Assembly: GCF_964019625.1 (NCBI RefSeq)
Contig: NZ_OZ026458.1
Coordinates: forward strand, 434,001 to 498,000
Reading direction: 5' to 3'
Length of the DNA: 64,000 nucleotides
Source of the DNA: Spiroplasma endosymbiont of Diplazon laetatorius
GTDB taxonomy: Bacteria; Bacillota_I; Bacilli_A; Mycoplasmatales; Mycoplasmataceae
A program made the position numbers and the translations under genes. The notes beneath the pieces are model-generated. The model searched no databases and was not told the origin of the DNA. It saw only the letters and a program-made list of their open reading frames with translations. Of the stretch, positions 24,179 through 41,458 are shown in pieces. The number at the start of each line of letters is the position of its first letter. The stretch's first letter is position 1.

Positions 24179-24194
24179 TTTTCCCCAAGGAAAA
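24179..24194 (+). promoter_or_regulatory. 16-bp palindromic box, copy 1 (variant)
   Basis: TTTTCCCCAAGGAAAA; one centre base differs from the consensus TTTTCCCCAGGGAAAA. Ends 15 nt before the ATG at 24210, just before the Shine-Dalgarno GAAGGGA. Confidence 0.8.
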
Positions 24195-24209
24195 ATAGAA
24201 GGGACATCT

Positions 24210-24569
24210 ATGGGGAGTGAAAATAAAAAAGTGTGGTTATTAAACCATTGATTTAAGGGTTGAAATAATAAGAAGACAGCTTTTGCAATTCAAAGTCCTT
24301 GAAATAAGGATGGGTTAATATGAATTTATAAAAATTATTATTTATCAAGCAAATATAAAAATCGTTTTGGTATTGAAGTAAACATTGTTAATTTTAAAAC
24401 TAAAAAAACACATTATTATCAAGAAATAATTTATTCATTAAGAAAAAAGCAAGTAAATATGATTTCAGGTGAAATTTTAGCTAGTTTCTTTGAAGAATTA
24501 AATAATAAAAATTCTCAAGAATATAAAGAATTTGTAACAAAATTTATAGGAGAAAAAATTTATGATTAA
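24210..24569 (+). CDS. small protein of unknown function, first gene of element operon
   Basis: 119 residues. The first ~60 contain six Trp, four of them TGA (HWFKGWNNKKTAF, PWNKDGLIWIYKNYY), followed by a helical C-terminal half. No known domain; a replication initiator role would fit its place just before a DnaC-like ATPase, but there is no motif to support it. SD GAAGGGA directly after the palindromic box. Its stop overlaps the next start (8 nt), so the two are translationally coupled. Confidence 0.7.
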
Positions 24570-25152
24570 AACTAAATTTAATGTTGATCAAGATTTAGAT
24601 TATACAAAATTTAATCCTTTATTTAACAAAGTTAAACAAAAAGAAGGATTTAAAAATAATGGAATCTATATTCATGGCAAACCAGGAGTTGGAAAAACTA
24701 CTTTTATAAAAAAATTTGTTGAACATTCCAAAATTAATTTTGAAGTTGTTAATGTTTCTCAATGAATAAAATCTCATCAACAAGCATGAGAAAACGGATA
24801 TGAGGGAATTTATGCTCCTAGCGCTAATCGTTTAGCTCAAAAACAAATTTTAATTCTTGATGATTTAGGAAGTGAATTTATTCATAAATCTACACTTCCT
24901 TATATCTACAATTTATTAAACGAAAGATTTGAAAACAGCAAACAAGATAGCACATTAATTACAATAGTTACTTCAAATTATGATTTAGAAAATTTAGAAA
25001 AAAATTATAATACTAAATCAGATAATGTAACTTCATCAAGAATTATTTCTAGATTAAAGGGGTTAATTGATCTAAATATAGAATTTGAAGGCATTGATAA
25101 AAGATACTCCAATGAAATTGAAAATAAAAATTTTGAATATATTGATTTTTAA
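24562..25152 (+). CDS. DnaC/DnaI-like AAA+ ATPase (helicase loader type)
   Basis: 196 residues. Walker A GKPGVGKTT (about 38-46), Walker B ILILDDLGSE (about 95-104) and sensor-1 TIVTSNY (about 134-140), then Arg residues (SSRIISRL) where the Arg finger of this family lies. The LDDLG form of Walker B and the short length are typical of DnaC/DnaI/IstB-type ATPases. On this element it probably loads the replicative helicase; without an adjacent transposase an IstB role is unlikely. Confidence 0.82.
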
Positions 25153-25168
25153 TTTTCCCCAGGGAAAA
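25153..25168 (+). promoter_or_regulatory. 16-bp palindromic box, copy 2
   Basis: TTTTCCCCAGGGAAAA begins at the stop codon of the ATPase gene and ends 1 nt before the ThiF start at 25170. Here its own AGGG must act as Shine-Dalgarno, so box occupancy or a hairpin would directly block translation. Confidence 0.85.
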
Positions 25169-25169
25169 A

Positions 25170-25913
25170 ATGAATAAAATAATATTTTTAGTTGGAGTAG
25201 GGGGCACAGGTGGTCTTCTTGCTGGGAAACTAGCAAAATTTTTAACAAATGAAGATAGTTTAGTATTAATCGATGGTGACAAAGTTGAATATAAAAATGT
25301 TATAAGACAACCCTTTCAAAATCATGATGTCTATAGTTATAAAGCTGAAAGTTTAACTAGAAAAATAAACAGTATAAGTAGATTTAAAAATTGTTATTCT
25401 ATTAATAAATTTTTAAATAAAGAAAATTCATTATTTAAAATAATTAAGTCTTTTAACGCCGTTTTTAATAAGGTAATAATAATAAGTTGTGTTGATAATC
25501 ACAAAACCAGAATACTTATTGAAAAATCAACAAATATGTTTAAAAATTTATTGCTAGAAAAAGATTTTAGTTGAATTGGATATTCTAAAGCTTCAGATGT
25601 AATTTATATTGATTCAGCAAATGAAGATATATATGGCGATATTTTAATTAATGAATTTAGAAGTAATATTTATAATTTAAAAATTGAAAAAGAAACAGAA
25701 CTTAAAATATCAGAAGAAAGTTGTGAAGAGTTGATAAATGACGGAATTATTCAACAATTTTCAACAAACGATCAAGCAAGTAACTTAATTTTAAAAGTTT
25801 TATCAAATATTGATATGTATATAAAAAATAAATATCATATTAAGTTTTGAGAATTTAATTCTAAAATTGAAAAAATAAAGCAAAACAACAAAAATGGAAA
25901 AACATCAAATTAG
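25170..25913 (+). CDS. ThiF/E1-like protein (PRTRC-type)
   Basis: 247 residues. The E1/ThiF adenylation fold signature is complete in the first half: glycine loop V8GVGGTGG15, then LVLIDGDKVEYKNVIRQPF with D37, N43, R46, Q47, and the downstream CVDNHKTR (D109, N110, R114). The G-x-G-G-T-G start and N-x-x-RQ-x-F spacing fit the ThiF member of PRTRC cassettes (ParB-related, ThiF-related cassette), in which E1-like, E2-like and ParB-like genes travel together; an E2-like gene and parB-like gene follow here. C107 lies next to the DN motif; whether it is catalytic is unknown. Overlaps the next gene by 20 nt. Confidence 0.8.
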
Positions 25914-26412
25914 TGTTTTTATTAATAATTTAAAAGTTATTGATAAATGCAATATTGAAAGAATATCTTTTTTGAGAAAACACATTATTTCTAAAATTTA
26001 TTTGTTAGCATGACAAAGAGATAATTTGGTTGAAAATGTAGTGATCAGAGATGAAGTTATTTCAAATGATATAAATAGATTTCATTTATACGAAACAATA
26101 TTACTTAATATAAATCAAAATTTATCTGAACCAAATTTTATTTTTGAATCAATAAACAAAAAAGAATTTGTAACTACAAAATATATTAATAAACTTCCAA
26201 AATATCAAAAAGAATATTTATTACAAAAATTTAAAAATTCAGAAAGTATAAAAATCATTAATTTAAATAATGAATTATATTTTGAAATAATACCAATAAC
26301 TAATAAAAACCAAAATCAAGATATTTTGTTTTTAAAAGAATTAGAAGAGAAACGTAAGTTAATAAAGGATCTTATAGATGAAGCTAAACTTAAAAGAAAT
26401 AAAAGAAATTAA
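25894..26412 (+). CDS. unknown protein in the PRTRC-like cassette
   Basis: 172 residues, starting inside the ThiF gene and ending inside the next gene, so it is part of a tightly coupled operon. N-terminal half has beta/helix character; the last ~40 residues are a Lys/Glu-rich helix. No JAB/MPN metal motif, no Cys pair and no P-loop, so it is not the JAB peptidase of PRTRC systems. Not recognised. Confidence 0.7.
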
Positions 26413-26806
26413 ATTTTTAGAAATAAATCCTTTAAAAGTAAAAAATAAAAATACTTCTAATAAAAATAAATACAATAAATTTATTAAAAAAAATGAAAAC
26501 AATTTTAATGATTTAAAAATCGTTAACTCTATTAGAAAAATATCTAAAACATGATACATATATGAAAAACTCAGAGCACAAATTTGTGGTTGAGGCGAAT
26601 TAGATTTAAATTGAGTTATTGAAATTAAAAAAATTATTAATCAAAATTCTAAATTATTAAAAATTAATGTAAATGATTTTTTTAATTTTATTCAATCAAA
26701 AAAAGAAATTGAAAAAGAAACAAAATTTACAGCCATACCTGAAAAGGAAATAGTTTGTACAGAAATTACTTTTGAAAGGAATGATGATTATGAAATCCTT
26801 TTCTAA
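26378..26806 (+). CDS. unknown protein in the PRTRC-like cassette
   Basis: 142 residues, overlapping its neighbours on both sides (35 nt and 17 nt), which supports it as a real operon member. Lys/Asn-rich N-terminus, a central helical part with TGA Trp codons (KTWYIYEKLRAQICGWGELDLNW), and an acidic C-terminus. No recognisable motif. Confidence 0.65.
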
Positions 26807-27449
26807 ACTAAAATTAGAATTTGATAAAAACGATAAAGGATATTGCAAAGTACAATTGGAAAATAAAAGTGGAGTTAATAAATCTGGATGAATCAAATTT
26901 AATGATTTTTTAAATTGATTATTTATTAATGCAAAAAATAATATTGATAAAATTGGAAATATAAGTTTTTCAGAAAAACTTATTGCTATAAAATCAAGTG
27001 ATCATTCTGATTTTTATTTCTTTTATTATGAACCTTCTATAAGAGATATTTTTGCTTATAAAAAAGGTAAATATGTTCACAAAACTATATTTTTACCCCA
27101 ACTAATTGCAGAGGTTAAATTAGATAAAATTAATATTTCAAATAATTGAAATATTAGATTATTTGCCTTTAGTGGGGAATTAAGTGAAAAAACTAAATTT
27201 TTTTCAATGAAATTACCTCATTTTTATGAAACGGGAGATTTATGTTTAGGAAATTTAAATTCACTTAAAAAAATAAAAGAACTAAATGAACTTGATAATC
27301 TAATAAATTATATATTTTCTACAAAATTTAATCATGAATGAACTGAAATAAATGAAGAATTTACAAAACCAGCTCATTTCCTAAAAGGTTTAGAAGGTTT
27401 AAAACAGTACAAAAAAATTAATGAAAAAATACTTTTTAACAAAAGATAG
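26790..27449 (+). CDS. E2-like PRTRC protein B homologue
   Basis: 219 residues. Its second half matches the layout of PRTRC system protein B (prokaryotic E2-like family D): a hydrophobic strand (IRLFAFSG), the short segment MKLPHFYETGDLCLGN with Cys152 in the position where E2-like enzymes carry their active Cys, then an aromatic segment ending FSTKFNHEW. In PRTRC cassettes this protein accompanies the ThiF/E1-like protein, as here. ATG 26790 is chosen because GAAAGGA (26774-26780) is 9 nt upstream; ATG at 26781 and 26784 are too close. A ubiquitin-like conjugation role is inference. Confidence 0.7.
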
Positions 27450-27454
27450 AAAGA

Positions 27455-27470
27455 TTTTCCCCAGGGAAAA
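27455..27470 (+). promoter_or_regulatory. 16-bp palindromic box, copy 3
   Basis: TTTTCCCCAGGGAAAA, 5 nt after the stop of the E2-like gene and 16 nt before the ATG at 27487; followed by SD AAAGGT. Confidence 0.85.
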
Positions 27471-27486
27471 ATAAAGGTAAAAAAAT

Positions 27487-28064
27487 ATGTCAATATTTAA
27501 TGAAAATCAACAAAAAAAGTAACATGACCTACTTTTAAATTTAAAACTGGTAAAAAAATTAAAAAAATTAAAGATGAAGAGAATTCTAATGAAAATGATA
27601 AAAAATGAGTTTGTCCTAATCTTATAAATGACAAAGATAAAAACAATTTAATTCATGGAACTCAATGTTTAAACTGTATTAGTGAATGTGGTGGCACATT
27701 ATGTGTTGATTGTTGTTCAAATGAATATGAAGGTGAAGATTTTGGTGAAGAAAAAAATTTAAAGTCAAATAAAGAAGTAACCAAACAAAATAAATCAAAA
27801 AAAGAAAAATCAAAAAAAATTGAAACTGAAGTAGATGAAATTATAAATGTTCCCAAAGGTTCTATTTTAAGAATAGATGGTGAAGAATTTCAAATACATA
27901 TATCTATTAAAGAAAATGAAATTATTGATCAAAATTATATTCATAAAAAAGTTATTGATCCAAATGGTGTCATTAATAAGTGAGAATATAAAAATGCTGA
28001 ACTTAAATATGATAAAGAAGATAATATATTTTATTATGTAATAGAATCTCCTAAGAAGGGATAA
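27487..28064 (+). CDS. Cys-rich protein apparently requiring a -1 frameshift at A AAA AAG
   Basis: Box, Shine-Dalgarno (AAAGGT) and ATG are all in place, but the initial frame ends after 11 codons at TAA 27520-27522. The preceding bases are CAA AAA AAG, i.e. the canonical slippery heptamer A AAA AAG; a -1 shift enters a frame open to 28064, giving about 192 residues. The downstream frame has no start codon of its own. The product has a Cys cluster (CPN..., CLNCISECGGTLCVDCC) near residues 43-76, a Lys-rich linker, and a C-terminal beta-rich domain ending in ...SPKKG. It sits between the E2-like and ParB-like genes. A Ub-like role for the Gly-ending C-terminus is speculation. A missing A (decay or miscall) is the plain alternative. 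Confidence 0.6.
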
Positions 28065-28069
28065 AAAAT

Positions 28070-28831
28070 ATGTATAAAATTGAATTAATAGAAATTAATA
28101 GAATACTAAATAATCCTTTCCAACCAAGAAAACACTTTGATAGTAATTCAATAGTAGAGCTTGCAAATTCAATATCTAAAATTGGTTTATTACAACCAAT
28201 TATTGTAAATATTAATAATAAAAATGAAATTAAACTAATTGCTGGACAAAGAAGATTAGAAACTTATAAAAAATTAAATAAAAGATTTATTGAATGCTTA
28301 ATAATTCCTGGTAATGCAAGTGAAAAAGACTTTACACAAGCAAGTATTATTGAAAATATTCAAAGAGAAGAAATGTCTTCTTATGATACTGCATTATCTT
28401 TAAAGGAACTTAAAGATAATGGAATGACATTACAAGAGATATCAGAACAAATTGGTAAATCATTAAGTTGAATTTCTAAATCAATTAATGCATTATCGCT
28501 TGGTAAATTAAATTTAGAAATACAAGAAAAAATTGAAAAAGGAAATTTAGAAATTTCTAAAGCAGCATTAATAGCAAGTGAAAAAAAATTAACAAGTAAT
28601 GAAAAATGCGAGTTAGTCAAAGAAGTAATTGAAGGTAATTTAACCAAAAAAGAACTTGAAAATAAATTAAATAAAAAAGAATTTATAAAAAATGCAGATT
28701 GGTTGAATTTAGAATCAAACATTCAAAGAAAATTAGGAACAAAAATCACAATTCAAAAAAATAAGTTAACAATAATGTTTTTAGATAAAGATGATCTTAA
28801 TAGAATTTTAGAAGAAATGAGTTTAATTTAA
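28070..28831 (+). CDS. ParB/Spo0J-like protein
   Basis: 253 residues. ParB N-terminal domain (IEINRILNNPFQPRKHFD, then LLQPIIV, the arginine-patch box IAGQRRLETYKKL and SIIENIQREEMSSYDTALS) followed by a helix-turn-helix (MTLQEISEQIGKSLSWISKSI) and a C-terminal domain of about 90 residues. GQRRL differs from the usual GERRxR by a Glu-to-Gln change. No parA accompanies it, which fits a PRTRC-type or regulatory ParB rather than a standard partition pair. It could be the protein that reads the 16-bp palindromic boxes; this is inference. Confidence 0.88.
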
Positions 28832-28833
28832 AA

Positions 28834-29082
28834 ATGGCTTATAAACTTTTAAAAAAAGAACATTACTTATGACTTTTAAATATTTCAAAATATCATGATT
28901 ATAATGAAATTCATCAAGCTTTAAAAATAATTAGAGAAAAAAAGAACATTATTGATAGCAAAGAAAAATGAGTTAATAACACAACTTTAAATAGAAATAG
29001 ATATTGAATACTTTCTACATTAGTTGAAAAATACAATTATAACGATGTTTTAAATGCTTTAAATCAAATATTTTCAAAATAA
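28834..29082 (+). CDS. small unknown protein after ParB
   Basis: 82 residues, 2 nt after the parB-like stop, hence same operon. Helical, with Trp codons written TGA (HYLWLLNISKYHDYNEI, RYWILSTLVEKYNYNDVL). No motif recognised. Confidence 0.65.
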
Positions 29083-29121
29083 ATAATTGTTATTTAAAAA
29101 AAACAGAAAGTAAATAAAATT

Positions 29122-29256
29122 ATGAAAAAACTAATAAAAAATTGTTATAAATGCAAAAAGAAAATAAAAGATAGTGAAAATTATAATTCTTTTAAAACTA
29201 TAGATGTGTTTGGAAATGATATTTATGAAATATCATGTATTAATTGTTTTGCTTAA
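29122..29256 (+). CDS. tiny zinc-ribbon-like protein
   Basis: 44 residues with CYKC near residues 8-11 and CINC near 39-42, the spacing of a one-domain zinc ribbon or treble clef. Too short for ORF finders with usual limits. SD weak (AGAAAG). Confidence 0.55.
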   Translation: MKKLIKNCYKCKKKIKDSENYNSFKTIDVFGNDIYEISCINCFA

Positions 29257-29283
29257 AATTCAAAAATTAAAGGAGATGAAAAA

Positions 29284-29529
29284 ATGATTTTTTTAAAATG
29301 AATATCTATTTTATTACCTATATTAGCCTTAATATATTTGATTATAGTTATATATAATTGTTTTTCTTGAGAAAAATGTTTTAAATGTGCTTATCCAATT
29401 AAAACAACAAAAGCAAAAGCATTATGTAAAACTTGTAAAAAAGAAGGTTTTAGATTAAAAACAAAAAAGCAAATGCTTTATGAAGCATGAGAAAAAAAGA
29501 TAGATGTTGAAGAAATATATAAAAAATAG
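29284..29529 (+). CDS. membrane-anchored zinc-ribbon-like protein
   Basis: 81 residues. One N-terminal transmembrane helix (about 4-26), then CFKC and CKTC pairs (about 33-52) and a basic helical tail. Strong Shine-Dalgarno AAGGAGATG. It probably exposes a small zinc-binding domain to the cytoplasm. Role unknown. Confidence 0.65.
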
Positions 29530-29546
29530 AAATAAAGGTGAACTCT

Positions 29547-29660
29547 ATGATTGGAATGTGTCAAAAAAGTGGTTGTAAAAAAATATCTTTTAAAAAAAGA
29601 TATGTTAGAAATTCATTAATAAATTTATGTAAAAAACATTATAAAAATATTAATTTTTAA
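29547..29660 (+). CDS. tiny Cys/His protein
   Basis: 37 residues with C-x4-C near the N-terminus (MCQKSGCKK) and C-x2-H near the C-terminus (LCKKHYK), a possible CCCH zinc site. SD AAAGGTG 7 nt before ATG supports translation. Function unknown. Confidence 0.5.
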   Translation: MIGMCQKSGCKKISFKKRYVRNSLINLCKKHYKNINF

Positions 29661-29668
29661 TTAAATAA

Positions 29669-29684
29669 TTTTCCCCAGGGAAAA
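29669..29684 (+). promoter_or_regulatory. 16-bp palindromic box, copy 4
   Basis: TTTTCCCCAGGGAAAA, extended by A and T to an 18-bp palindrome ATTTTCCC-CA-GGGAAAAT. Ends 16 nt before ATG 29701. Confidence 0.85.
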
Positions 29685-29700
29685 TAGAAATGAGAAACAT

Positions 29701-30213
29701 ATGAATATTATAAATAAGTCAAAATTAATTAAAATGATAGATGCTAAAATATCAAATTTAGATCAAAAAAGTATGAGTTGAATGCTTAAATCAAAAGAGT
29801 TAATAATTGCTAACTATGAAAATAATATTAGTATCAAAAAACTTAAAAAGAAAATAGATAATCTTAATATAAATACTTTTAAAACTAAATATATTAAAAT
29901 AGAAAAATATGAATTTAGTAATATCAAAATAACTGCTCTTTTTATATTAAAAAATTTGCATGTTTATAATAAATTATGCCAAAATTGCAATACAAACATC
30001 TGAAATAGAAAAAAAATATATTTTGAGTTTAAAGATACAAAAAATATCAACACAATTTTTTTAAAATTAAAATTATGTGATTTTTGTAAAGAGATATGAG
30101 TTAATTTTTTAGCAAAAGGTGATTTTAAAATATTAACTAATTTTTTTAATTGAAATAAAAATAATTTACCTAAAGATTATACCGGATTATTTTGACCTCC
30201 AGATTTAAACTAA
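29701..30213 (+). CDS. unknown protein with CxxC pairs, possibly truncated by in-frame TAA
   Basis: 170 residues to TAA 30211-30213. The N-terminal ~58 residues (KLIKMID..., then LIIANYENNISIKKLKKKIDNL) are clearly similar to the N-terminus of the next gene, so these are tandem paralogues. CQNC (about 95-98) and CDFC (about 128-131) could form a zinc ribbon. The same frame stays open after TAA for another 58 codons to 30390 (containing CLFC), so the ancestral protein may have been about 229 residues. The Shine-Dalgarno is poor. Confidence 0.65.
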
Positions 30214-30409
30214 AACAGGCAAATAATATTCTATAAAGTTCTTAAAACAAATATAAGTAATGTATATGATTATAAAGCTTATTGTTTATTTTGTACAAAA
30301 CAAAAAGAAGCTAATATTGCTATTGAATCATTAAATTTTTCAATCACCATTTTGAACAATATTAAACAAAATTATGTATCAAAAAAATAATTAATTCTTA
30401 ATTAAATAA

Positions 30410-30425
30410 TTTTCCCCAGGGAAAA
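30410..30425 (+). promoter_or_regulatory. 16-bp palindromic box, copy 5
   Basis: TTTTCCCCAGGGAAAA within ATTTTCCC-CA-GGGAAAAT; 17 nt before ATG 30443. Confidence 0.85.
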
Positions 30426-30442
30426 TAGAAAGAAAAAAATAT

Positions 30443-30955
30443 ATGAAACTAAATTTAGAATCTTTAATTAAAAAAATAGATTTAGAAAATAAAGTAAATA
30501 AAACAGATAAATTTTGAATAGAATCAGCTAAAAAAATGATAATTAATAATTTTGAAGAAAATATAAGTATTGATCAATTAAAATTAAAAATTAGCAATCT
30601 AAAAGTAAATAATGAAAATGAAATTTCTATTAAATCAAATACAATAGCTATTTTAAATAATTTAAATAAAAAATTACTTGAAAAAAATGACTTTAAAACT
30701 TTAAACAACAAATTTATTGGTAAAACAAATAGTGGAGAAAATCAAAAGTTTAATTTTGTTGATATTAAAAAAGAAAATTATATTTTAGATACTTTTTCAA
30801 CAGAAAATGAAAAAACAGAATGTAATGTTGCATTTTGTAGAAATATTTCGTCATATGTTAGAACAGACTTTACAAATAAACCCATTTTAAAAAATAGTTT
30901 AGAATTATATGTTGCTTTAGTTTTATGCAATGAACATTATAATTATTTAAAATAA
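30443..30955 (+). CDS. unknown protein, paralogue of the 29701 gene
   Basis: 170 residues, the same length as its upstream paralogue; similarity covers the first ~58 residues (LESLIKKID..., MIINNFEENISIDQLKLKISNL). The C-terminal part has CNVAFC and a final LCNEHYNYL, a possible C-C-C-H zinc site. As in the paralogue, the frame continues open past its TAA (30953-30955) for 65 more codons to 31150; that extension has no ATG before its hydrophobic part and encodes two possible membrane helices. Confidence 0.7.
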
Positions 30956-31150
30956 TTCTATTATAATAATTTAATTATTTTATTTTTTATTAATACAAGT
31001 ATAACAACTTATGCTATTTGAAATTATAAAATAAAAAACCCCAATTATGTAAAACAGTTATTTATTTTTATGACGATTATATTTAATATATTGAAATTTA
31101 TTTTTTCAATGTTAATGTTCTTATTTAAAAGTTTTTATATATATTTTTAG
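30956..31150 (+). other. open in-frame extension after the 30443 gene
   Basis: 65 codons without TAA/TAG in the same frame as the preceding gene, ending at TAG 31148-31150. The translation is strongly hydrophobic (ILFFINTSITTYAIW, then LFIFMTIIFNILKFIFSMLM). It lacks an early start codon and Shine-Dalgarno, so it is either a lost C-terminal extension, a remnant of a small membrane protein, or chance. Confidence 0.3.
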
Positions 31151-31243
31151 TAAATAGCATAATAAACTATATAAAAATATGTTAATAAAACTATGCTAAT
31201 TTTTGTTAATTAAAATTTTTATGAAAGGTGTGTGGTCTATATT

Positions 31244-31447
31244 ATGAGTTTTAATATATTTGTATTAATTATTTACGTGATAGTGGTAAGTATTCTGCTA
31301 ATTTATGGCATTCATTATTTGATAAAATCAAAGCATTGATTTTGAAAAACAAAAATTTTTAAAATTAGTTTATATGTCTTGATTATTATCTTGATTATTA
31401 TGAGTGGTATTTTTGTTATTTGTCCTTTTAAATATTTTAATTATTAG
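31244..31447 (+). CDS. small two-helix membrane protein
   Basis: 67 residues with two transmembrane helices (about 3-26 and 42-61) separated by a basic loop (KSKHWFWKTKIFK). Shine-Dalgarno unconvincing: AAAGGTG lies about 16 nt upstream. Small di-helical membrane proteins are common on conjugative elements; no specific function assignable. Confidence 0.45.
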
Positions 31448-31545
31448 TCAAACTATTTTAAAAACTGTAATTGTGGATAAATGAAAAATAATAAAATAAT
31501 ATTTTAAATAAAAAAGATTAAAAAATGCATTAAATAAATAATTGC

Positions 31546-31818
31546 TTGATAGATAAAAAAATAGAAGATCAAAATAAAATAAGTATAGTAAATATAATAG
31601 ATTCCCATAAAGTTTCATTATTAAAAATTCAATATAAAAATTTTATCTTAAAATACTTATTTAAAAATAATGAAGCTTTTATTCCAATAAAAATTAATAT
31701 TGTAGGTAAAGTACTTACTCCAAAAATATATAAAAGTTTTATTATGCTGCTTCATTCCATATTTCAATTATATATCAAAATAAAAAATAGAAAGAAGTTG
31801 ATCCAATGACTAAACTAG
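31546..31818 (+). CDS. possible small protein upstream of topA (weak start)
   Basis: An open frame from TTG 31546 to TAG 31816-31818 (90 residues with TGA as Trp), overlapping the topA start by 13 nt. The translation looks protein-like, with a central basic/hydrophobic part (KYLFKNNEAFIPIKINIVG), but there is no ATG or Shine-Dalgarno. The rest of the 31448-31805 interval shows nothing else. Confidence 0.3.
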
Positions 31819-33751
31819 TTATATTAGAATCACCAGGTAAAATTAAAAAAGTAAGTCAATTTTTAAAAGAAATTGACAAAAATAACAATTATATTGTTAA
31901 AGCTTCAATTGGACATGTTAGAGAACTTTCAAATGAAAATGACTTTAATATGGGAATCAATCTAAAGCAAATGATGCCAATTTATAAAATTTCAAATGAT
32001 AAAAAACAAGTTGTAAATGAATTAATTGAACAAGCAAAAAATGTAAAAGAAATAATTATTGCAACAGATCCAGATAGAGAAGGAGAAGCGATTGCTTTTC
32101 ATTTATTTGAAATTTTAAAAGAATATAATAATAATTTTAAAAGAATGAGATTAAATGCCATTACAAAAGAATGTATTCAAAAAGAGTTAAATAACTTAAA
32201 TGGAATAAATCAAAGTTATGTAAACAGTGCTCTTACAAGACAAATTTTAGATAGAATGGTTGGATTTAGAATTTCTCCAATTTTGCAAAAAACTACTGGA
32301 GCTGCAAGTGCAGGAAGAGTTCAAAGTGCAGTGTTAAAAATATTGTGCAATAGACAAAAAGAAATCGAAGTTTTTGATAAAAAACAATATTTTTATATAC
32401 AAGATGAAACCATTAGAGACATTGTTTTTAAAAATTACGTTTATAATGAAAATAACAAATTAGTAATTAATAAAATTTTTGATAAGCAAAAAGCAATAGA
32501 GTTAAAGAATACTTTAACTGATAATTTTGTTGTAAAAGAGATAAAAGAAACTAAATTTGAAGAAAATAACTTTAAACCATTTTCAACAGCGGACTTATTA
32601 AAAGCAGCTAAATCTAAATTAAAGTTAAAAACTAAAGAAACTACTCAATTGGCTCAAAGTTTGTATGAAAAAGGATTAATAACTTATATTAGAACTGACT
32701 CTAATAATTTAGATCATGAAACTGAACAAAATTTAGTTAAATTTATTATTAATCATTTTGGACAAGATAAATTGGACAAACTTATTAAAACTCAAACTAA
32801 AGAAACAGATCAAGAAGGACATCCTGCAATCACACCAACCCATTTTGAATGACTTGTTGAAAATATAGATAGTCATTGTAATGATCAATTAAACGATAAA
32901 GAAAAAAATTTATACTGATTAATATGGCAAAATACTATAAATTCAATTTATCAAAAGCCTAGTGGTATTAAAAAAGAAGTTTTCTTAGAAAACAATAAAA
33001 GTATTTTTTATGCAAATTTAAAACAATATACTAGTAAAGGTTACTATGAAATTGATAAAAGTTTAGAATTAGCTAAAAAATTGAATTTAATTACTTTAAA
33101 GATGATAAATTGAATGCAAATTGTTTAGAAATTATTCAAGATTATGATAAAACTCCAAGTAAGTTAAATGAAGTTAGTTTAATTGAACAACTACAAAAAT
33201 TAGAAATTGGTAGACCCAGTACCTATAAAACAGCAATAGAAGTAAACGTTTTAAGAGGTTATGTTGAGTTGGAAAAAACTAAAGCTGAATCAATGACAGT
33301 TAATGAATTAGGTTTAAAAGTTAATAGTTTTTTAGAAAAAAACTTTAAAAGTATTATAAATCTAGATTTTACTAAAGATATGGAAAAAGATTTAGACTTA
33401 ATAGCTAATAATAAAATAGTTGATCATAAACAATACTTGAAAGACTTTTATTTAAAATTAGATAATTTATCTACTAACTATAATTTTGATGGTCTAAGGT
33501 GCTCAAAATGTCAAATAGGCTATATTTTAGATAGAGTTAGCAAAAAAGAAACAAAGTTTAAAGGTTGTTCAAATTACCCAAATTGTGATTTTATTAAGTT
33601 TAATCAACCAGATTATTCAAATAATAAGTCATGTGAAATTTGTAAAAACGGTTACATGATCGAAAGAAGTTATACTGATAAAAAAACCAAAAAAATTAAG
33701 AAATTTATGGGTTGTTCAAACTATCCAAGTTGTAAAAATACAATATTTTAA
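31806..33751 (+). pseudogene. topA: type IA DNA topoisomerase with a -1 frameshift
   Basis: About 648 residues if repaired. Seen: Toprim motifs LVILESPGK and TDPDREGEAIAFH, the active-site Tyr294 in LITYIRTDS, and at the C-terminus two four-Cys zinc ribbons (CSKCQIGY..GCSNYPNC, CEICKNGY..GCSNYPSC). The frame from 31806 runs to about 33080 and then fails; the following sequence continues in the -1 frame from the A6 run in GCT AAA AAA TTG (33073-33084), giving LAKK then IEFNYFKDDK. The intact downstream zinc ribbons suggest a recent lesion, a miscalled homopolymer, or slippage. Mobile elements often carry a topoisomerase of this type in addition to the chromosomal TopA. Confidence 0.8.
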
Positions 33752-34095
33752 AAATAATTTATTTTTATTATAATTCAAAATTTAATATAAAATAATGAAA
33801 AAATGTGTATTTAATGGCAAATTGATGTGAAATTTATACACCAGTTAAGGTTGTTAAAAATATACTTAACTTAGTTAATTATAAAGATTCTAATTACAGT
33901 TTACTTCAAACATCAAAAATTGCCAACAATTTTAAAGCTTATAATATAAAAAAAATAATACATATATTTAATTTAATTATCATCACTTAAAACTTTGTCA
34001 ATAATCAAACTACTTTAAGTTAAAAAATAATAAATTTTAAAAAGTATATTTTATTTATAATGCTATAATTAAAATATTATAAGGAGAACAAAAAG
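33752..34095 (+). other. mostly non-coding interval after topA
   Basis: 344 nt, very AT-rich. It holds only the doubtful 58-codon frame 33814-33990, which lacks a Shine-Dalgarno, and the upstream region of the ferritin gene. Confidence 0.5.
33814..33990 (+). CDS. doubtful short ORF, possible remnant
   Basis: 58 codons from ATG, no Shine-Dalgarno. The start MANWCEIYTPVKVVKNILNL has a passing likeness to the YTPxxVVxxM segment of N6-adenine methyltransferases, so it might be the relic of a modification gene. Evidence is thin. Confidence 0.25.
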
Positions 34096-34620
34096 ATGGA
34101 TAAATTAGTTTTAAGTAATTTACAAGATTACATTAACAAACACATTGAGATGCAATTAAACTGTTTTAATTTAAGTAAAAAATGTGATGAATTTGGTTAT
34201 CCAGGGTTTACACATTTTTTTCAAGTACAAGCTCAAGATGAATTTTTACACCAAAGAAGAATTATGAATTATATTTTAAATAATCAACAAGATTATAAAA
34301 TAGGTTCAATAGAAATAAAAACATTTGAATTAAAGAATATTGAAGGAATATTGAAGGAATATATTAGTTTAAGAAAAAATTTTATAATTATGACAAACGA
34401 GTTTACAAATAATGCAAAAAATAAAAATGATTTTGCAACAGTAAAATTTTATGAGTGGTTTGCAATTGATTTTTATGAAGAAATATCAGAAATAAACGAT
34501 TTGCTAGATTGAATTAAGATGTCTAATGGAAATCATTATGAAATAGATAAAAAAGTATTAAAAAGAGAAAACCCAGTTACATTAGAAATAATTTCACCTT
34601 TTTCACCTCATTTAGATTAA
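34096..34620 (+). CDS. ftn: ferritin
   Basis: 174 residues in the ferritin-like four-helix pattern. Helix A has E-x2-LNCFNLSKKC, then GYPGFTHFFQVQAQDEFLHQRRIMNYI in the place of the FtnA segment G-(F/A)-xx-FxxQxxEExxHxxKxxxYI, and helix C/D carries YEWFAIDFYEEISEINDLLD. One of the usual ferroxidase-site acidic pair is Asp (QDE). It would oxidise and store iron in the cytoplasm. SD AAGGAG 8 nt before ATG. It is cargo: nothing next to it concerns iron. A redox-protective benefit to the host is inference. Confidence 0.75.
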
Positions 34621-34667
34621 TTTAAAATAAAATGAATTAAGAAATTCTAAAATAATAAATAATACTT

Positions 34668-34774
34668 ATGTTATACTTAAATCAAGGTAAATAGAGCACT
34701 AGCAACGCTAGGACTCTATTTTTTTGTTTAAATCAATATTTTATGTAACTAGCTATTGCTAGTTTTTATTTTTT
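34668..34774 (+). promoter_or_regulatory. repeated leader, copy A: extended -10 promoter plus tandem hairpins
   Basis: TG-T-TATACT (34669-34677) begins the unit. Hairpin 1: AAATAGAG(34689-34696) / CTCTATTT(34714-34721) with inner CTAGC(34699-34703)-AAC-GCTAG(34707-34711), then T tract. Hairpin 2: AACTAGC(34747-34753)-TATT-GCTAGTT(34758-34764), then T tract. The inner arms of the two hairpins are the same sequence, so hairpin 1's GCTAG can pair with hairpin 2's CTAGC and dissolve both terminators. It is followed by SD GAAAGGA and the 34797 gene, without the 16-bp box. Confidence 0.75.
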
Positions 34775-34796
34775 AAAATTAGAAAGGAACTAAAAT

Positions 34797-35608
34797 ATGA
34801 ATATTTATAACATGAAATCAATATTTCCAGGAGATTTTCATTTATTTGATGATCAAAAAGGCAATTACAAAAAGGGTGATTTAAAAATAAGAAAAGTAAT
34901 AAAAATTAAAAATGTTGATAATAACTGAATTATTATTGGTATTTTAAGCAATAAATATAAAAAAGAAAAAACTATAAAAATTAAAACTACTAATAAAATT
35001 TATAAAAATAGTGTTTTAGTTGATACTCATAATTTACAAATTGATGACATTTACATTGTTCATAAAAAAAGACTAAGAGAAAAAGTAGGAAATATTGATC
35101 AAAAAAACTTAGAAGAAATTAAAAAAATATCAAATAAATACTTATTTGAATGTAAAGAAAAATCTTTATTTTTAAAAATGGTTGAAAATAAAGAAATATA
35201 TAAATTAAATTTTGATGAGCAAAAATGGTGAGAAGTTGATAAACAGTTAAGTAAAAAAATAAAGAAAAATATTTTAATATTGATCAAGTAATATTGAGAA
35301 ATAATTTAATTGATAATAGACAAAAAGAATTAAATAAAGATATATTATCAGTTACAAATCAATTAATTATTTTTACTAAAAAAGCTAAAAAAACAATTGA
35401 AAAGATTAATTTGTTAAATAGTAAAAGTTTTTTAGAAAATAAAGATAAAAATTTACAAAAACTTTATTTTGAATTAGCAGACAAAAAAGAAAAATTAAAA
35501 ATAGAAGTTAGTGTTTATAAAAAACAATTAAATTTATACAAATTAGAAAAAGAAGAAAAAAATGAGTATATTAAAAAACTTAAAAACAAGATAAAAGAAT
35601 TAAAATAA
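34797..35608 (+). pseudogene. unknown protein split by a -1 frameshift
   Basis: The first frame (34797-35291, 164 residues) ends shortly after an A7 run at 35253-35259; the -1 frame is open from there to 35608 and continues naturally (KEKYFNIDQVILRNNLIDNR...), giving about 270 residues in all. The N-terminal ~90 residues are beta-rich (GDFHLFDDQ, YKKGDLKIRKVIKIKN, WIIIGIL), loosely like the MazF/PemK fold, though no family motif is secure. The C-terminal half is a long coiled coil rich in Lys/Glu/Leu. SD GAAAGGA. Controlled by leader copy A. Confidence 0.55.
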
Positions 35609-35733
35609 ATGAATGCTATTTATAAGATTCAAAACAATAAAAACATTAAAGAAAATGAATATGATTAATTTATAAAATGTTATGATTTAATTATGTTTAT
35701 TGATATTAAAATTCTAATATAAAAGGAAATAAG

Positions 35734-35934
35734 ATGGAAAAATTTGAAAAATTAGATGGTTTAAAAGTTTGTATTTATATAGAAACTGATGAAGGTAGAT
35801 TAAATTTAGCAAATAAAGATGATTTAGAAAAGTTTAAAAAATATAGTGAAAATTGAACAGATCAAGAAATAAATGATTTTATGAATAATATAAATGAGAC
35901 TTTAGATAAATTAGAAAAAGAGTTTGATAAATAG
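35734..35934 (+). CDS. small acidic unknown protein
   Basis: 66 residues, SD AAAAGGA 9 nt upstream, terminator immediately downstream, so it is probably expressed. One beta strand pair (LKVCIYIETDEGRLNLA) followed by an acidic helix (EINDFMNNINETLDKLEKEF). No known domain. Confidence 0.65.
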
Positions 35935-35956
35935 TTATTTAAATAACTATTTTTTA
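35931..35956. terminator. palindromic terminator
   Basis: Perfect 20-bp palindrome ATAGTTATTTAAATAACTAT (35931-35950) spanning the stop codon, followed by T5. Confidence 0.75.
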
Positions 35957-36088
35957 ATAAAAGTAAATAAATAATGTTATTGTTTTTATTCTTTAAAACA
36001 TTATCTTAAAAATATTAATTTAAAGAATAAATAAAAAAATAAGTATAATATAGATATTGTAAATAAAATTAAAAAGGTTGTGAAAAAA

Positions 36089-37627
36089 ATGAAATTATTA
36101 TTTGCATTTTGAATATTCTTAAATACTTTTTCTTTTTCTTTTTCAAATTATAAAATTCTTAATGAAAATCAATTAGATATTATTAACCTTAATTACCAAA
36201 ATAGTCAATATAATGAAAATATTAGTTATAAAAGTTTGATTATTCCAAATAAGCAATATATGTATTATGGAAGATTGCTCAAATATTATTATTCTAATAA
36301 TATTTTTGTATCAGATAACGAAATAAATCAAATATCTAAAAATATAATAATTAGTGGAGAAAATTCAAATATTTATAATTCTTTATTTATACAAAATTTA
36401 GTAGCAACTACAATAATGCCGAGCATATATGGATCAAGTAGTGATGCTGAATTTTTTGCAGAAAGTTTTAGTAAGTGATTGAATACCGATAATGAATTAA
36501 GAAATAAAAGTTGGGAAGTTACAAATAATTTTTATTTAAAAATTTTGCCTGAAATTATAAAAATTGGTGGTTTAGTTGAGGGCGAATATGAAAATAATCA
36601 AACAATTTCACATAAAGCCATTGAATTAATTAGTGAAAATTCAAATTTAGTAAAATATAATACTAAACTTTCACAAAAACCAAGCGATTCCCTAGAATTA
36701 AAATATAATAATTCATCTATAATTTGAACTCAAGAATATTCAAATAATGCTCTAAATTATATTAAAAATCAAGTTGAATAAGAAGCAAAAAGATCCATAA
36801 TAATTAATGACATTTCAATAATCAATATAACTTCAAAATGGATGAATGATTCTTATACAAAAGCATCAAAAAATTCAATTGATGAATTTAACGTTTTTAA
36901 TGAAAATCATTTTTTTAATTTTGATAATCTCGATAGGAAGATTGCAAATAATTCAAAAGATATAAATAGTTATAGTTCGGTTTGATTTTCACATGTATTT
37001 AGCAGCATAGAAGAAGCATATTTAAAAAGTACTCCTAATTTAAATTCTGATGGAGAAAAATGAACAAAAGAACACACCAAACAATTAAAAGAATTAACAT
37101 TGAAACTTTATAATGTTCTTTTCAATCTAATAAAAAATGAAACATGAGTTCAAAATATATTATCAGCCCTTATAATTAGTCCAGATTTTCCTTTAGTTAG
37201 TGATGATAGTTCTCTAATGGAAAACGTTATGGGTTATACAAATACATCTTATTATGTTGATAGTTCTAATAATTTTTATAGCACCGCTTATTCTTATATA
37301 GTAATTGCTGGCCCAAGTCTAACTTTTCAAAAATTTAATTCTCAATATAAAAATGCTTTTTGAAGTAGTCCAAATAAATTTAGTGTCTGAATTCATGAAA
37401 TGGGTCATGTTGTAGATGCTTTTGGAAGTAAAACTATAAATTATAGATCTATTAATTATTCAAAAAAACTTGATTATAAAAACTTGTATAAAGGACAATT
37501 TTTTGGTGATTATATAGTTTCATCAAGTGGACCAATTTTAATTTGAATTTTTGCAACTTTTTCAGGAGTTACTATAATTATAATTGTTGTTTTTTATCTT
37601 GTTAAAAAATGCAAAAAAAAGCTGTAA
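36089..37627 (+). pseudogene. secreted HExxH metalloprotease-like protein with in-frame TAA
   Basis: About 512 codons. N-terminal signal peptide (MKLLFAFWIFLNTFSFSFS), C-terminal transmembrane helix (PILIWIFATFSGVTIIIIVV) and basic tail, so a surface-anchored protein. The zinc motif is WIHEMGHVVDAFGS (H436, H440). An in-frame TAA at 36779-36781 (codon 231) splits it; the second half could restart at ATG 36842 but has no Shine-Dalgarno. The first half has SSDAEFFAESFSKWL, which looks like the third-ligand region normally found after HExxH, yet lies before it. This suggests two partial copies joined, or a permuted arrangement. Confidence 0.6.
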
Positions 37628-37741
37628 ACTTTAAAAATTTTTTTATTTAAATATGTATTATATTTTATTTAGTTCATTCATACAAAAATCTAGAAAATTA
37701 TTTAATTTATATTTATTTACTTTTAATCATTATTATGTATT

Positions 37742-37850
37742 ATGTTATACTTAAATCAAGGTAAATAGAGCACTAGCAACGCTAGGACTCTATTTTTTTG
37801 TTTAAATCAATATTTTATGTAACTAGCAGCTGCTAGTCTTTTTTATTTAT
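37742..37850 (+). promoter_or_regulatory. repeated leader, copy B
   Basis: TG-T-TATACT (37743-37751), hairpin 1 identical to copy A, hairpin 2 with the same arms but a different loop (ACTAGC-AGCT-GCTAGT), then T tract. Followed by palindromic box copy 6 and SD GAAAGGA. Confidence 0.75.
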
Positions 37851-37860
37851 CATTATTAAA

Positions 37861-37876
37861 TTTTCCCCAGGGAAAA
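37861..37876 (+). promoter_or_regulatory. 16-bp palindromic box, copy 6
   Basis: TTTTCCCCAGGGAAAA inside ATTTTCCC-CA-GGGAAAAT, downstream of leader B and 19 nt before ATG 37896. Confidence 0.85.
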
Positions 37877-37895
37877 TAGAAAGGAAATTTTAAAA

Positions 37896-38223
37896 ATGAC
37901 ATTAAAAAAATGCTTAATTATTTAGAAAATGAATTATCAGCTAATTTTTTAGCGGACCATTATCAAGATAATGTAATAAAAAAGAAATAGTTTGTAAAAA
38001 TGTATATTTTATAAATAAAAATAAATTAATATTAAAAGCAGAACCATTATATATACATGAACCTTTTACAATGTTAAATGATTGAATTCCTTTAGATGAT
38101 AAGACTAGAGAATATAAATATGATAAAAAATTTTTATGTGATTTTAAAATTTTAAAATTAAAACCTAATAAAAAAATACATATTAAAGAATCAGTTATGA
38201 ATATATACTTATTTACAAAATAA
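37896..38223 (+). pseudogene. small protein needing two -1 frameshifts at A-tracts
   Basis: ATG follows leader B, box 6 and SD GAAAGGA, but the frame stops after nine codons. A -1 shift at TTA AAA AAA (slippery A AAA AAA) opens a frame to TAG; a second -1 shift at ATA AAA AAG (slippery A AAA AAG) opens the last frame to TAA 38221-38223. The composite is about 109 residues with a plausible beta-rich C-terminal part (LYIHEPFTMLNDWIPLDDK). Two lesions of the same kind in 110 codons are either decay by A-tract shortening or reading by slippage. Family unknown. Confidence 0.5.
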
Positions 38224-38576
38224 ATCCAATTTCTAATAAATAACTTTTTAGATTATCAATATTTCCAAGTATAATTCTTTGATTTCTATAAAAAAGTGCT
38301 TAATTTCTTGTTTTTAGATTATTTTTTACATTATTTTGAGTGTAAATAAATCCAAAAATATTATTTTTTGATGTTTTTTAACTATTTCAACTAATTTAGT
38401 ATATGTGTTTTGAACATAAGTGCAGGATTTTTTTCTTGTGTGATATTTTTTTTAAAGAATGATTAGTTTTTTATTTCTTGCAAATTCGTATGAAAATTTT
38501 ATTTTTGAAAAAATAGTAATATAATAAAAAAATAAGGTTAGTAGGGTGGGCAAGTTGAAAGAAAGGAAATTTAAAT
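38224..38576. other. non-coding interval with a faint minus-strand coding trace
   Basis: 353 nt. No plus-strand gene. On the minus strand, 38430 to 38213 reads as protein-like fragments (YTKLVEIVKKHQK, then LGNIDNLKSYLLEIGF) only if a frameshift and a TAA are bridged, so it may be a relic. Near 38541 a G-rich patch (GTAGGGTGGGCAAG) precedes the Shine-Dalgarno of the next gene. Confidence 0.35.
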
Positions 38577-39368
38577 ATGGTCAAATTATTAAGTTTAATA
38601 GGCTCAATTAGTTTAAGCACTAGTGGTGTAACACCATTAGTTGAAATTTCAAAAAATTTAGTTACAATAGAAAAAAGTAAATCAATTAATTTAAATATTG
38701 TTGATGGTAATTATTATATTTTTAATACATTTCCATATTATTTTGTAGATTATAATACATGAGCAGTTGCACCTGCTTTTATAACAGGACAAGCAGCAAA
38801 TGCAATCATTAAAGCTGGGGTGAGTGGAGTAAATCCATATGATTTTGAACTAGTAAGTTCTTATAATATTACTGCAGATAGAGAATTAAATGAAGATGAT
38901 TTGTTGGGAAGAACAGGATCTGGTTCAATTCTTGTTGAATCAATTTTAAAACCAACCGATGCCGGAGAAGAAAAAGGATTGTATGGAGAAATGAAAATCT
39001 ATACTGAACTTAATTATGATTCATTAGATTTGTCAATATTAAATGGCCAAATAACACCAGGTTATGTTTCGGGTGTCAATGAAATTGAAAAAATTTCTAT
39101 TTATGTTCACTCAGACATTTTTGAATTTTTTCTTAATTTTTATGAATATCCAACTTTCCAACACGTAAATTCTGTTGAAACTTCAAAATTCTTATTTAAA
39201 AGTGGAACTACTGACTTATTTGGTCAAGAAGATTTAAATGCAATGAAAAATGGAGAAGAAGTTTTGTTGGATTTTTGACTAACACCAACTGTTGAGGGTA
39301 AAGAGAGAGGAATTTATAATAAAGCAAAAATGACTCTTAAATATGTTAAAAATGATTTAAATAATTAA
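38577..39368 (+). CDS. secreted protein of unknown function
   Basis: 263 residues. N-terminal signal (MVKLLSLIGSISLSTSG) very like those of the lipoproteins at 13223 and 15069 but without a lipobox Cys, so it is either released or held by its uncleaved signal. The mature part is acidic, beta-rich and without Cys; no family recognised. SD GAAAGGAAA. Intact, unlike its neighbours, and therefore a candidate surface-active cargo product. Confidence 0.75.
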
Positions 39369-39480
39369 TTAAAATTTATATTTTTTAAAATAGATACTCT
39401 ATATTATTTTCAATGCTATAAATATTTTAAAAATAATATAGACAAAAAAATAAAGACTATGATATAGAAATGTAATTTTA

Positions 39481-39588
39481 ATGTTATACTTAAATTAAGG
39501 TAAATAGAGCACTAGCAACGCTAGGGCTCTATTTTTTTGTTTAAATCAATATTTTTTGTAACTAGCAATAGCTAGTTTTTTATTTATT
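39481..39588 (+). promoter_or_regulatory. repeated leader, copy C
   Basis: TG-T-TATACT (39482-39490). Hairpin 1 differs from A and B by one base (GGGCTC instead of GGACTC), which turns a mismatch in the internal loop into a C-G pair. Hairpin 2 is ACTAGC-AATA-GCTAGT: arms conserved, loop changed. Leads into the inverted box and the relaxase gene. Confidence 0.75.
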
Positions 39589-39597
39589 CTTATTTAA

Positions 39598-39613
39598 TTT
39601 TCCCTGGGGAAAA
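39598..39613 (-). promoter_or_regulatory. 16-bp palindromic box, copy 7 (inverted)
   Basis: TTTTCCCTGGGGAAAA, the exact reverse complement of the consensus box, 14 nt before the relaxase ATG. Its presence in the opposite orientation argues for recognition as double-stranded DNA. Confidence 0.85.
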
Positions 39614-39627
39614 TAGAAAGGAAATAT

Positions 39628-41229
39628 ATGAAAAAAGCACCTGGTGTTATTTTTAAGACTTTAAATTTTAATCAACCAATTGATCCAGTAACAAAAGAAG
39701 TAAGAAATAAGAGTAAGAAATCTAGAGATAATTACTATAAATCTGGTGACTATTTAAACTATATTTCTAGACCTGATGCTGTTTTTAATCTAGATATAGA
39801 TGATGAACAAGTAAAACTATTAAATACTTTAAGAACTGGATCAAAAGAAGAAAAAGTTAAATATAATAAAATGCTTGAAGAAATAAACAAAAACTTTAAA
39901 AGTACAGGAATTTATTCAAAAAATGGATTAATGAGTATAGAAGAAGTAAAAGAATTAAAAAAAGATATGAAAAACTTAGATGATAAACAAGTTTTTTGAG
40001 ATACTATTATCTCTTTTTCAGATGATTTTATTAAAGAAAATAATCTTTATACACCTGAAAAAGTTCAAAAAGCACTAAATGTTGAACTTAAAAGTTTTTT
40101 TAGTGATAATGGTATGGACTTTGAAAAAGTAAACTGATTTTTTGCAATGCATACAAATACCGACAATAATCATATTCATTTGGGTTTTTTTGAAAAAGAA
40201 TCTACTAGCTATGAATATGTTTTAGACAGTAATAAAGATAAGGTTTTAAATAAGTATGGAAAACCTAAAAGAAGAAGGGTTTGAAAACAAAATGGTATGC
40301 TTTATTCTAAAACTGAATTTAGAGCTGGACTAGATATAAATATCAGAAATCAACAAAAAGACAATTTTAAATTTTTAGAAAGTCAGCGTAATTTAAGAGA
40401 TAGATTTGAAATATCATGAAATCAATTTTCTAACACTATAAATACTTCATGAAAAGATGCAAAACAAATTTATGTTGATATTAATAAAAGCAAGGTTAAT
40501 TTAATTGATAAAATTGAATTATTTTCTAATCAATTAAAACAAAAATTAAAGCTAAATTTTGGAAGTTTTAAAGATATTCCTTTAAAGAAAATTACTTATG
40601 GATCTAAATTTATAAGTGATCTAGATAGAAAAAAATTAGATGAAATTACTTTAGATTTTATTAACAGTGATATTAACTTAAAAAAAGAATATGACATTTT
40701 TATTGAAGAAAATAACAAAAAAGCAGAAGAGTTTTGTCAAATTTATTCAAACTATGAATTAGAAAATGTTGATCTAGAAATTGAAGAAAAAAACTTTATT
40801 TTAACTACACAAGATTTATTAAAAGATGAAAAAGATTGAAATTTAAAAGATCCAATTGAAAAAATTAAATATAGAAAACTTAAATATAGAAATGAACATA
40901 TAAAATCATTAAATGCTCAAGGTTATTTTCAAGGTATTTTACCTGCTTTTGGAAATAAAATATTAAAAAAAATTATTTGAAATTGAAAAAAAGAAAAATA
41001 TAAGTCTAAAAGAAGTTATGTTGGAAGTAATTTATTTAATCCAAATGGGATAAGTAACAACAAAAAATACTTTTCTTCTCTTTTATATATGCCCAAAAAC
41101 TTATTTCAAATGATTCAAAAAGAGAAAAAAAAGGCAAGACAATCTGCTATGAGTATTATAAAAGATGAAACAAAACAGAGAAATAGATTAATTAAGGAAA
41201 GAAGGTTTTATAATGGAATTGATTATTAA
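39628..41229 (+). CDS. MobL/MobP-type relaxase
   Basis: 533 residues, uninterrupted. The relaxase metal motif is clear: H175-TNTDNN-H182-I-H184 in WFFAMHTNTDNNHIHLGF. The catalytic Tyr is probably among those of the N-terminal NYYKSGDYLNYI (about 36-47). The N-terminal ~270 residues form the nicking domain; the rest is a basic helical region. It would nick the element's oriT and pilot the strand during transfer. The gene tolerates an A8 run without a frame change. The next gene overlaps it by 17 nt. Strong SD GAAAGGA after leader C and box 7. Confidence 0.85.
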
Positions 41230-41458
41230 AATAATGTCATGTATGTATGCACTATTTTTTGTATTTTTTATTTATTACTTTTATAACTATATTCGCTTAA
41301 TACTAAAATTAAAAAAGATTAATAAAGAACAAAAAGTAGATGATGCATTTAAAATGAAACAAAAGAAATTAAAAATGAAATCATTAGTATTATGAATAAG
41401 TTTTTTATCTTTATTTTTAACTTTTGCAGTAATTACTTATATATTAGTTTATGCATAA
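41213..41458 (+). CDS. small two-helix membrane protein in the transfer operon
   Basis: 81 residues with two transmembrane helices (about 3-25 and 60-80) and a basic loop between. It overlaps both the relaxase (17 nt) and the TraG-like gene (8 nt), so the three are translated together. It may help attach the coupling protein to the membrane; not recognised. Confidence 0.7.

Follow-up and report, generated by a model that had tools for sequence, protein, structure and literature searches.

What does a short palindrome do when it stands directly in front of one gene after another of a single mobile element, and which protein reads it? The question is raised by a 64,000-nucleotide stretch of DNA, here called the window, from the Spiroplasma endosymbiont of Diplazon laetatorius (contig NZ_OZ026458.1, positions 434,001 to 498,000), a mollicute with a 979-kb genome (G000 in our set) in which TGA is read as tryptophan. 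The window carries a conjugative element (24.1-42.1 kb) with a replication operon, a PRTRC-like cassette, a topoisomerase, a MobP2-like relaxase and a truncated coupling protein. A sequence-only reading of this DNA had described a 16-bp box before genes or operons of the element and had proposed that it is an element-wide operator. On balance, we favor the view that the element's own orphan ParB uses the boxes as operators in duplex DNA, and we regard repression by this protein as more likely than activation.

A 16-bp box at the gene starts of one element

The box consensus is TTTTCCCCAGGGAAAA, with the form TTTTCC-N4-GGAAAA. Allowing up to three mismatches, we obtained 17 matches in the window against 0.74 +/- 0.95 in shuffled sequences, and these 17 are seven sites together with their opposite-strand or shifted readings (Table 1). 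Six of the sites are exact copies and the one at 24179 carries one mismatch; the copy at 39598 is inverted, and the measured spacings to the start codon run from 1 to 19 nt, all of which agrees with the sequence-only reading. That reading had also seen no copies in the chromosomal flanks, and at three or fewer mismatches we found no further site in the window, flanks included. Four copies extend, as had been noted, to an 18-bp palindrome, ATTTTCC-N4-GGAAAAT (29668, 30409, 37860 and 39597). No 7+2+7 palindrome family other than TTTTCCC-NN-GGGAAAA has two or more members in the window, and the largest such family in 100 Markov sequences had one member. Random scatter of the 16-mer over the chromosome, which had been named as an outcome that would speak against an operator, was not seen: the rest of the genome holds just three one-mismatch sites, two of which (631861 and 641038) precede remnants of a second copy of the element, while the third (889375) falls within a 1654-codon open frame. 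The second copy, at 625-645 kb of the genome, is decayed and contains relaxase fragments and two mutated boxes. The proposal that the box precedes seven genes or operons stands for the positions of the boxes and fails for the intactness of the genes. The frame after the box at 37861 is broken by a stop after nine codons and that after 27455 is frameshifted in the window copy, which leaves these two boxes in front of damaged genes.

Table 1. Boxes, candidate binding protein, leaders and operons of the element (window coordinates)
Feature	Position	Strand	Description	Box end to ATG (nt)	Orthologous boxes
Box 1	24179..24194	+	TTTTCCCCAAGGAAAA, one mismatch (CCAA center); before first gene (24210) of replication operon	15	G035, G042 (x3), G045
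Box 2	25153..25168	+	exact; junction of DnaC-like gene stop and ThiF gene start	1	G035, G042 (x3), G037
Box 3	27455..27470	+	exact; before frameshifted cassette gene preceding parB	16	G035, G042, G045
Box 4	29669..29684	+	exact, 18-bp palindrome; before 170-aa gene at 29701	16
Box 5	30410..30425	+	exact, 18-bp palindrome; before 170-aa gene at 30443	17
Box 6	37861..37876	+	exact, 18-bp palindrome; tandem-hairpin leader upstream, broken reading frame downstream	19
Box 7	39598..39613	-	exact, inverse (TTTTCCCTGGGGAAAA on +); before MobP2-like relaxase gene	14
Candidate binding protein	28070..28831	+	253-aa orphan ParB: ParB_N, HTH_ParB, ParB_C; nearest Noc
Leader before box 6	37743..37854	+	extended -10 (TATGTTATACT), terminator-like H1, H2; model R2 111.8 bits
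Leader before box 7	39482..39591	+	same leader family; model R2 107.3 bits
Box-less leader	34669..34778	+	same leader family, before PemK-like gene 34797-35291; model R2 102.5 bits
Replication operon behind box 1	24210..25152	+	119-aa protein (24210) and DnaC/DnaI-like AAA ATPase
Rest of PRTRC-like cassette	25170..27449	+	ThiF-like 25170-25913, 25894-26412, 26378-26806, Prok-E2_D-like 26781-27449
82-aa all-helical protein	28834..29082	+	conserved, directly after parB
Transfer operon behind box 7	39628..42137	+	MobP2-like relaxase, 81-aa protein, truncated coupling protein

The second outcome that had been named as speaking against an operator, absence of the 16-mer before starts in related elements, was likewise not observed. 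We surveyed 60 genomes of the family with the reversed pattern as a control. The control gave at most one match per strand and genome, and boxes formed clusters in a handful of congeneric genomes, with nine exact boxes in G035, seven and one variant in G042, and two and two variants in G045. At least three other species of the genus thus carry homologous elements with the box at orthologous positions. The boxes before the replication operon, the ThiF gene and the gene preceding parB are orthologous in G000, G035 and G042; in G045 the first and third of these are exact and the ThiF box is degenerate. In the apparently complete relative G035, all nine exact boxes stand before an open reading frame. 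They head the replication operon, ThiF, the pre-parB gene, the relaxase operon and other operons, with a type IV secretion system (T4SS)-type ATPase and a large surface-type protein among their products, and lie 1, 15-18 or 32 nt from the start; just 17.5% of non-coding positions in G035 have a start 32 nt away or less. A scan of IMG/VR with a relaxed 16-mer gave scattered single matches among the matches listed, which we took as chance, and the named genomes scanned with ThiF and with the extended box yielded no relatives.

Variation among the boxes indicates the form in which they are read. Among 35 sites, positions 2-6 and 11-15 (the arms of the core TTTCC-N4-GGAAA) are invariant except for one T, and the center is CCAG in 22, CTGG in 7, TTGG in 2 and CCAA, GCAG, CCGG and TAAT in one each. 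CCAG and CTGG are the two strands of one duplex word, as are CCAA and TTGG, and paralogous leaders show both forms of the center without any change in gene orientation. Invariant arms around a freely read center are what a symmetric dimer on DNA leads one to expect, in line with the earlier suggestion of duplex recognition by a dimer. The sequence-only reading had also left room for an RNA hairpin. In this alternative, a 6-bp hairpin just 5' of the Shine-Dalgarno sequence would be bound by a protein or RNA and would control translation. The constant proximity of boxes to starts (1-32 nt, often 14-19 nt) is in its favor, as are the transcription of the leader-class box well downstream of its predicted promoter and the two boxes at operon-internal gene junctions; at the ThiF start, moreover, the GGGA of box 2 is the sole Shine-Dalgarno-like sequence, so the box does supply it there as had been claimed. 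Against this, the hairpin (-4.6 or -3.4 kcal/mol) folds no better than shuffles, the arms are fixed with no compensatory change over the 35 sites while the loop flips between CCAG and CTGG, the Shine-Dalgarno sequence mostly lies outside the hairpin, and some boxes of G045 and G035 stand 27-32 nt from the start. We consider action in RNA improbable.

The orphan ParB as candidate reader of the box

The sequence-only reading named the ParB-like protein as the best candidate binder, and this choice has held up: the cassette has no other recognizable sequence-specific DNA-binding domain. The protein has Pfam matches to PF02195 (5.8e-19), PF17762 (1.3e-8) and, just under the cut-off, PF23552 (4.4e-5), and it scores 101.7 bits against a cut-off of 58.45 with TIGR00180, the ParB/Noc/KorB fold model. 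Noc is its top match both in structure (7ng0) and among families (TIGR04285). The putative CTP-binding motifs QPRK, GLLQPIIV, GQRR and ENIQR are kept, with invariant residues in common with Noc and Spo0J. Box 3 heads the operon that holds parB.

The distribution of the protein follows that of the box. The element ParB is detectable in G000, G035, G042 and G045, exactly the elements with exact boxes, and its orthologues are 57-58% identical to the window protein. Box clusters are confined to genomes with the cassette or cassette remnants. Two homologous conjugation backbones that lack both cassette and ParB, in G004 (whose proteins are roughly 30-50% identical to those of the element) and on an S. 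corruscae plasmid, contain no recurrent box and no leader; we also considered them as sources of a diverged box and found none. The box follows the ThiF/ParB cassette and not the conjugation backbone. As judged from the genomes, this co-occurrence of cassette, ParB and box is an association.

The recognition residues suggest a site of the protein's own. Binders of parS carry R173, N178 and G201, and NBS (Noc-binding site) binders carry Q173, K179, K184 and R201 (Jalal et al. 2020; PMC7383237). In our own alignment (Caulobacter numbering), the four element ParBs share W175, K178, S201, K202 and a hydrophobic residue at 173; R173, N178 and G201 are thus replaced, and the Noc positions 173, 179, 184 and 201 are occupied by L/I/V, S/M/I, S/E/N and S. 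Canonical parS (TGTTTCACGTGAAACA) has two exact sites on the chromosome, at 8.3 kb, and none in the 64-kb window, which makes it plausible that the host and element ParBs use different sites. Compared with the other element ParBs, the window protein carries three extra residues behind its recognition helix.

A ParB-family protein with multiple palindromes across its element also brings to mind centromere-like (parS-type) partition or DNA-organizing sites that are not operators, and NBS sites are likewise dispersed (PMC7383237). The element has no ParA gene, its ParB has no ParA-binding motif, and the sole ParA-type match in the genome is chromosomal, with host parB and parA at 949-951 kb; the protein is therefore not part of a canonical ParABS system. 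The boxes are, in addition, strictly start-proximal (the nine of G035 set against the non-coding background given above). A partition role for the boxes seems quite unlikely to us.

A weightier alternative, to which we give a real if minor chance, is that the box is a duplex-DNA operator of another cassette or host factor and that ParB serves partition or some other task. The 82-aa protein encoded at 28834 is as conserved as ParB and always adjacent to it; neither 24210 nor several of the cassette proteins have a family match in Pfam or NCBIfam, and box remnants occur in genomes without the element ParB. However, apart from ParB no recognizable sequence-specific DNA-binding domain is found in the cassette, the predicted structure of the 28834 protein consists of confident helices (AlphaFold) with no significant fold match, and a host factor would leave the absence of the box from cassette-free relatives unexplained. 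The AlphaFold model of 24210 is too poor to judge, and the 28834 protein is a possible partner of ParB.

Promoter, leader and a model for regulation

The transfer operons show how the box is placed relative to the predicted promoter. Their leaders run in the order extended -10 (TATGTTAYWMT-like), hairpin H1 and a U run, hairpin H2 and a U run, box, Shine-Dalgarno sequence and ATG, with predicted energies of -15.1 kcal/mol for H1 and -7.9 kcal/mol for H2. An explicit two-hairpin covariance model (R2), which was built without the box and replaced an RNAalifold structure (R1), finds 33 leaders of ~110 nt in 8 of the 60 genomes, none outside the genus, and the promoter motif is recognizable in 24 of 30 leaders examined. 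Several leaders, which stand before accessory genes, have no box: the one at 34669-34778 in the window, three of those in G035, and in G045 the leader of an ssb-like gene, an identity read from the sequence and not from a family search. Promoter and box therefore behave as separate modules, and only some of the genes carry the box. The predicted promoter lies ~105 bp upstream, followed by the hairpins and only then by the box, which is thus not a classical operator on top of a promoter. The earlier idea of an element-wide operator that defines one regulon holds overall, with the corrections that the regulon is selective and that the box does not overlie the promoter.

These leaders also bear on the possibility that the box belongs to a promoter, with a -10-like AT hexamer ending at its first T, transcription starting in its center and a repressor covering the start. 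AT-rich hexamers (TTTAAT, AATAAT, GATAAT) are indeed often found 5' of the box, but they are poorly conserved in such AT-rich sequence, and box-less genes share the leader and extended -10, so that the box is apparently not needed for transcription there. We think this very unlikely.

Returning to the orphan ParB, we propose that a dimer would read both arms of the box through its helix-turn-helix and that the box would load it as a CTP-dependent clamp. The clamp could slide over the adjoining ~100 bp, including promoter, tandem-hairpin leader and gene start, and would co-regulate, most likely repress, the replication genes, the ThiF/ParB cassette (parB included) and the transfer operons as a single regulon; a gene that has this promoter-leader and no box would escape ParB. 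Binding of the box, CTP-driven clamping and sliding, and the repressive effect are all steps that we infer, and loading at the box with reach to the promoter is drawn by analogy with KorB, BisD and VirB. Several observations weigh against this model. The transfer-operon box lies downstream of the predicted promoter, unlike the KorB operator OB, which lies upstream of target promoters; a sliding clamp would not need to sit as close to the start codon as the boxes often do (14-19 nt); and the strong CA/TG preference in the center goes beyond what a symmetric dimer alone explains. The protein scores only 124.1 bits against a cut-off of 315 with TIGR04285 (Noc) and is also below the cut-off of PRTRC_parB. 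Finally, the degenerate elements of G032 and G046 keep box-like sites, and the element ParB was not found there, which may reflect recent decay.

The leaders may have a role of their own, and an attenuation or trans-acting RNA system is possible. Within H1 and H2 we counted no compensatory changes, so the hairpins are proposed from conserved complementarity and energy only; Rfam gave no match above the gathering score in 23500-48000. The inner arms of H1 pair with H2 of the same leader at a mean of -12.8 kcal/mol, compared with -8.6 +/- 0.7 kcal/mol for other leaders, which we treat as a lead because relatedness among leaders was uncontrolled. One G035 leader, upstream of L034:9724-9739, differs from all others in that the inner sequences of H1 and H2 are exact reverse complements (CTAGTTGTACTAG / CTAGTACAACTAG). 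The gene behind the box-less leader of the window encodes a PemK/MazF-like protein (Pfam 8e-5, at the cut-off).

Known systems, significance and remaining genes

The operator sequence of OB differs from the box. The general plan is nevertheless similar to that of RK2 (IncP), in which a ParB-family protein of a conjugative replicon has multiple 16-bp sites before replication and transfer operons: KorB binds the 16-bp OB sites, loads CTP, slides and represses replication and transfer genes, working with KorA at a second operator (PMC11790492). In the element, unlike in RK2, the predicted promoter precedes the box and a KorA homologue was not seen; the match to the KorB-specific domain PF08535 is weak (E 0.045, 14.1 bits against 22.3). 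Noc is the nearest family and structure match and shares a 16-bp GC-centered palindrome (PMC8429893 for the length of NBS) and an orphan ParB with dispersed sites. The element ParB differs from it in lacking the QKKR residues, and the boxes are operon heads of one element, whereas NBS sites are chromosome-wide. Two further ParB-like clamps with a part in gene regulation are BisD of ICEclc-type elements and VirB of Shigella (PMC12704722). They resemble the element ParB as orphan regulators, BisD also coming from an integrative conjugative element; reportedly, both act as activators or anti-silencers, unlike the repression favored here.

The cassette unites ThiF, Prok-E2_D and ParB as the PRTRC system does, and PRTRC_ThiF is the best NCBIfam match of ThiF. 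All scores are below the cut-offs (PRTRC_ThiF 44.5 against 144.75, PRTRC_parB 54.8 against 278.6, Prok-E2_D 23.8 against 25), and the ParB has 253 aa compared with 555 positions in the PRTRC_parB model; we call the cassette PRTRC-like because its gene content is similar. The Pfam ThiF match is above its cut-off, and a survey of 320 genomes of the order detected the gene in 6, every one of them from this genus. To our knowledge, PRTRC-type ParB proteins have no assigned site or role, and the open-licence literature searched contained no description of the box, the leader or a PRTRC ParB site. We tentatively suggest, with rather less conviction than doubt, that in mollicute conjugative elements a PRTRC-type orphan ParB has acquired a 16-bp site distinct from both parS and NBS and uses it as a global switch. 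This switch would be layered on attenuation by a duplicated promoter-leader whose two terminator-like hairpins are mutually complementary, such that transfer operons face leader and then box and accessory genes the leader only.

The element family offers a compact testable pair, one 16-mer and one 253-aa protein, with natural controls at hand in the box-less leaders and the cassette-free relatives. If the ParB does read the box, the ParB/Noc proteins would gain a third recognition code tied to a defined DNA word, and clamp regulation of the KorB or BisD kind would reach minimal wall-less bacteria with few transcription factors. It would also provide a single control point for the whole element and a handle on the timing of Spiroplasma element transfer.

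The window copy of the element is itself reduced. Its coupling protein (41451-42137) has 228 aa, compared with an intact 820-aa T4SS coupling protein in G035, and we conclude that the remaining transfer genes are gone from this copy. The gene after box 3 is frameshifted at an A7 run (27487-27522), and its G035 homologue (139 aa) is intact. A programmed -1 frameshift at A_AAA_AAG (27513-27519) was considered and rejected, as the G035 homologue is in one frame with a different sequence there; the window copy has a 1-nt frameshift or an assembly error at this point. In the G035 element, a reverse-transcriptase gene (RVT_1; L034:13124-14887) lies upstream of a gene headed by a box. Ahead of the replication operon, at 24020-24145, the window contains repeated TGATTATAATC palindromes, including TTATAATCACTTGATTATAA, which is conserved in G035 and G042; these are possible origin iterons or a second operator.

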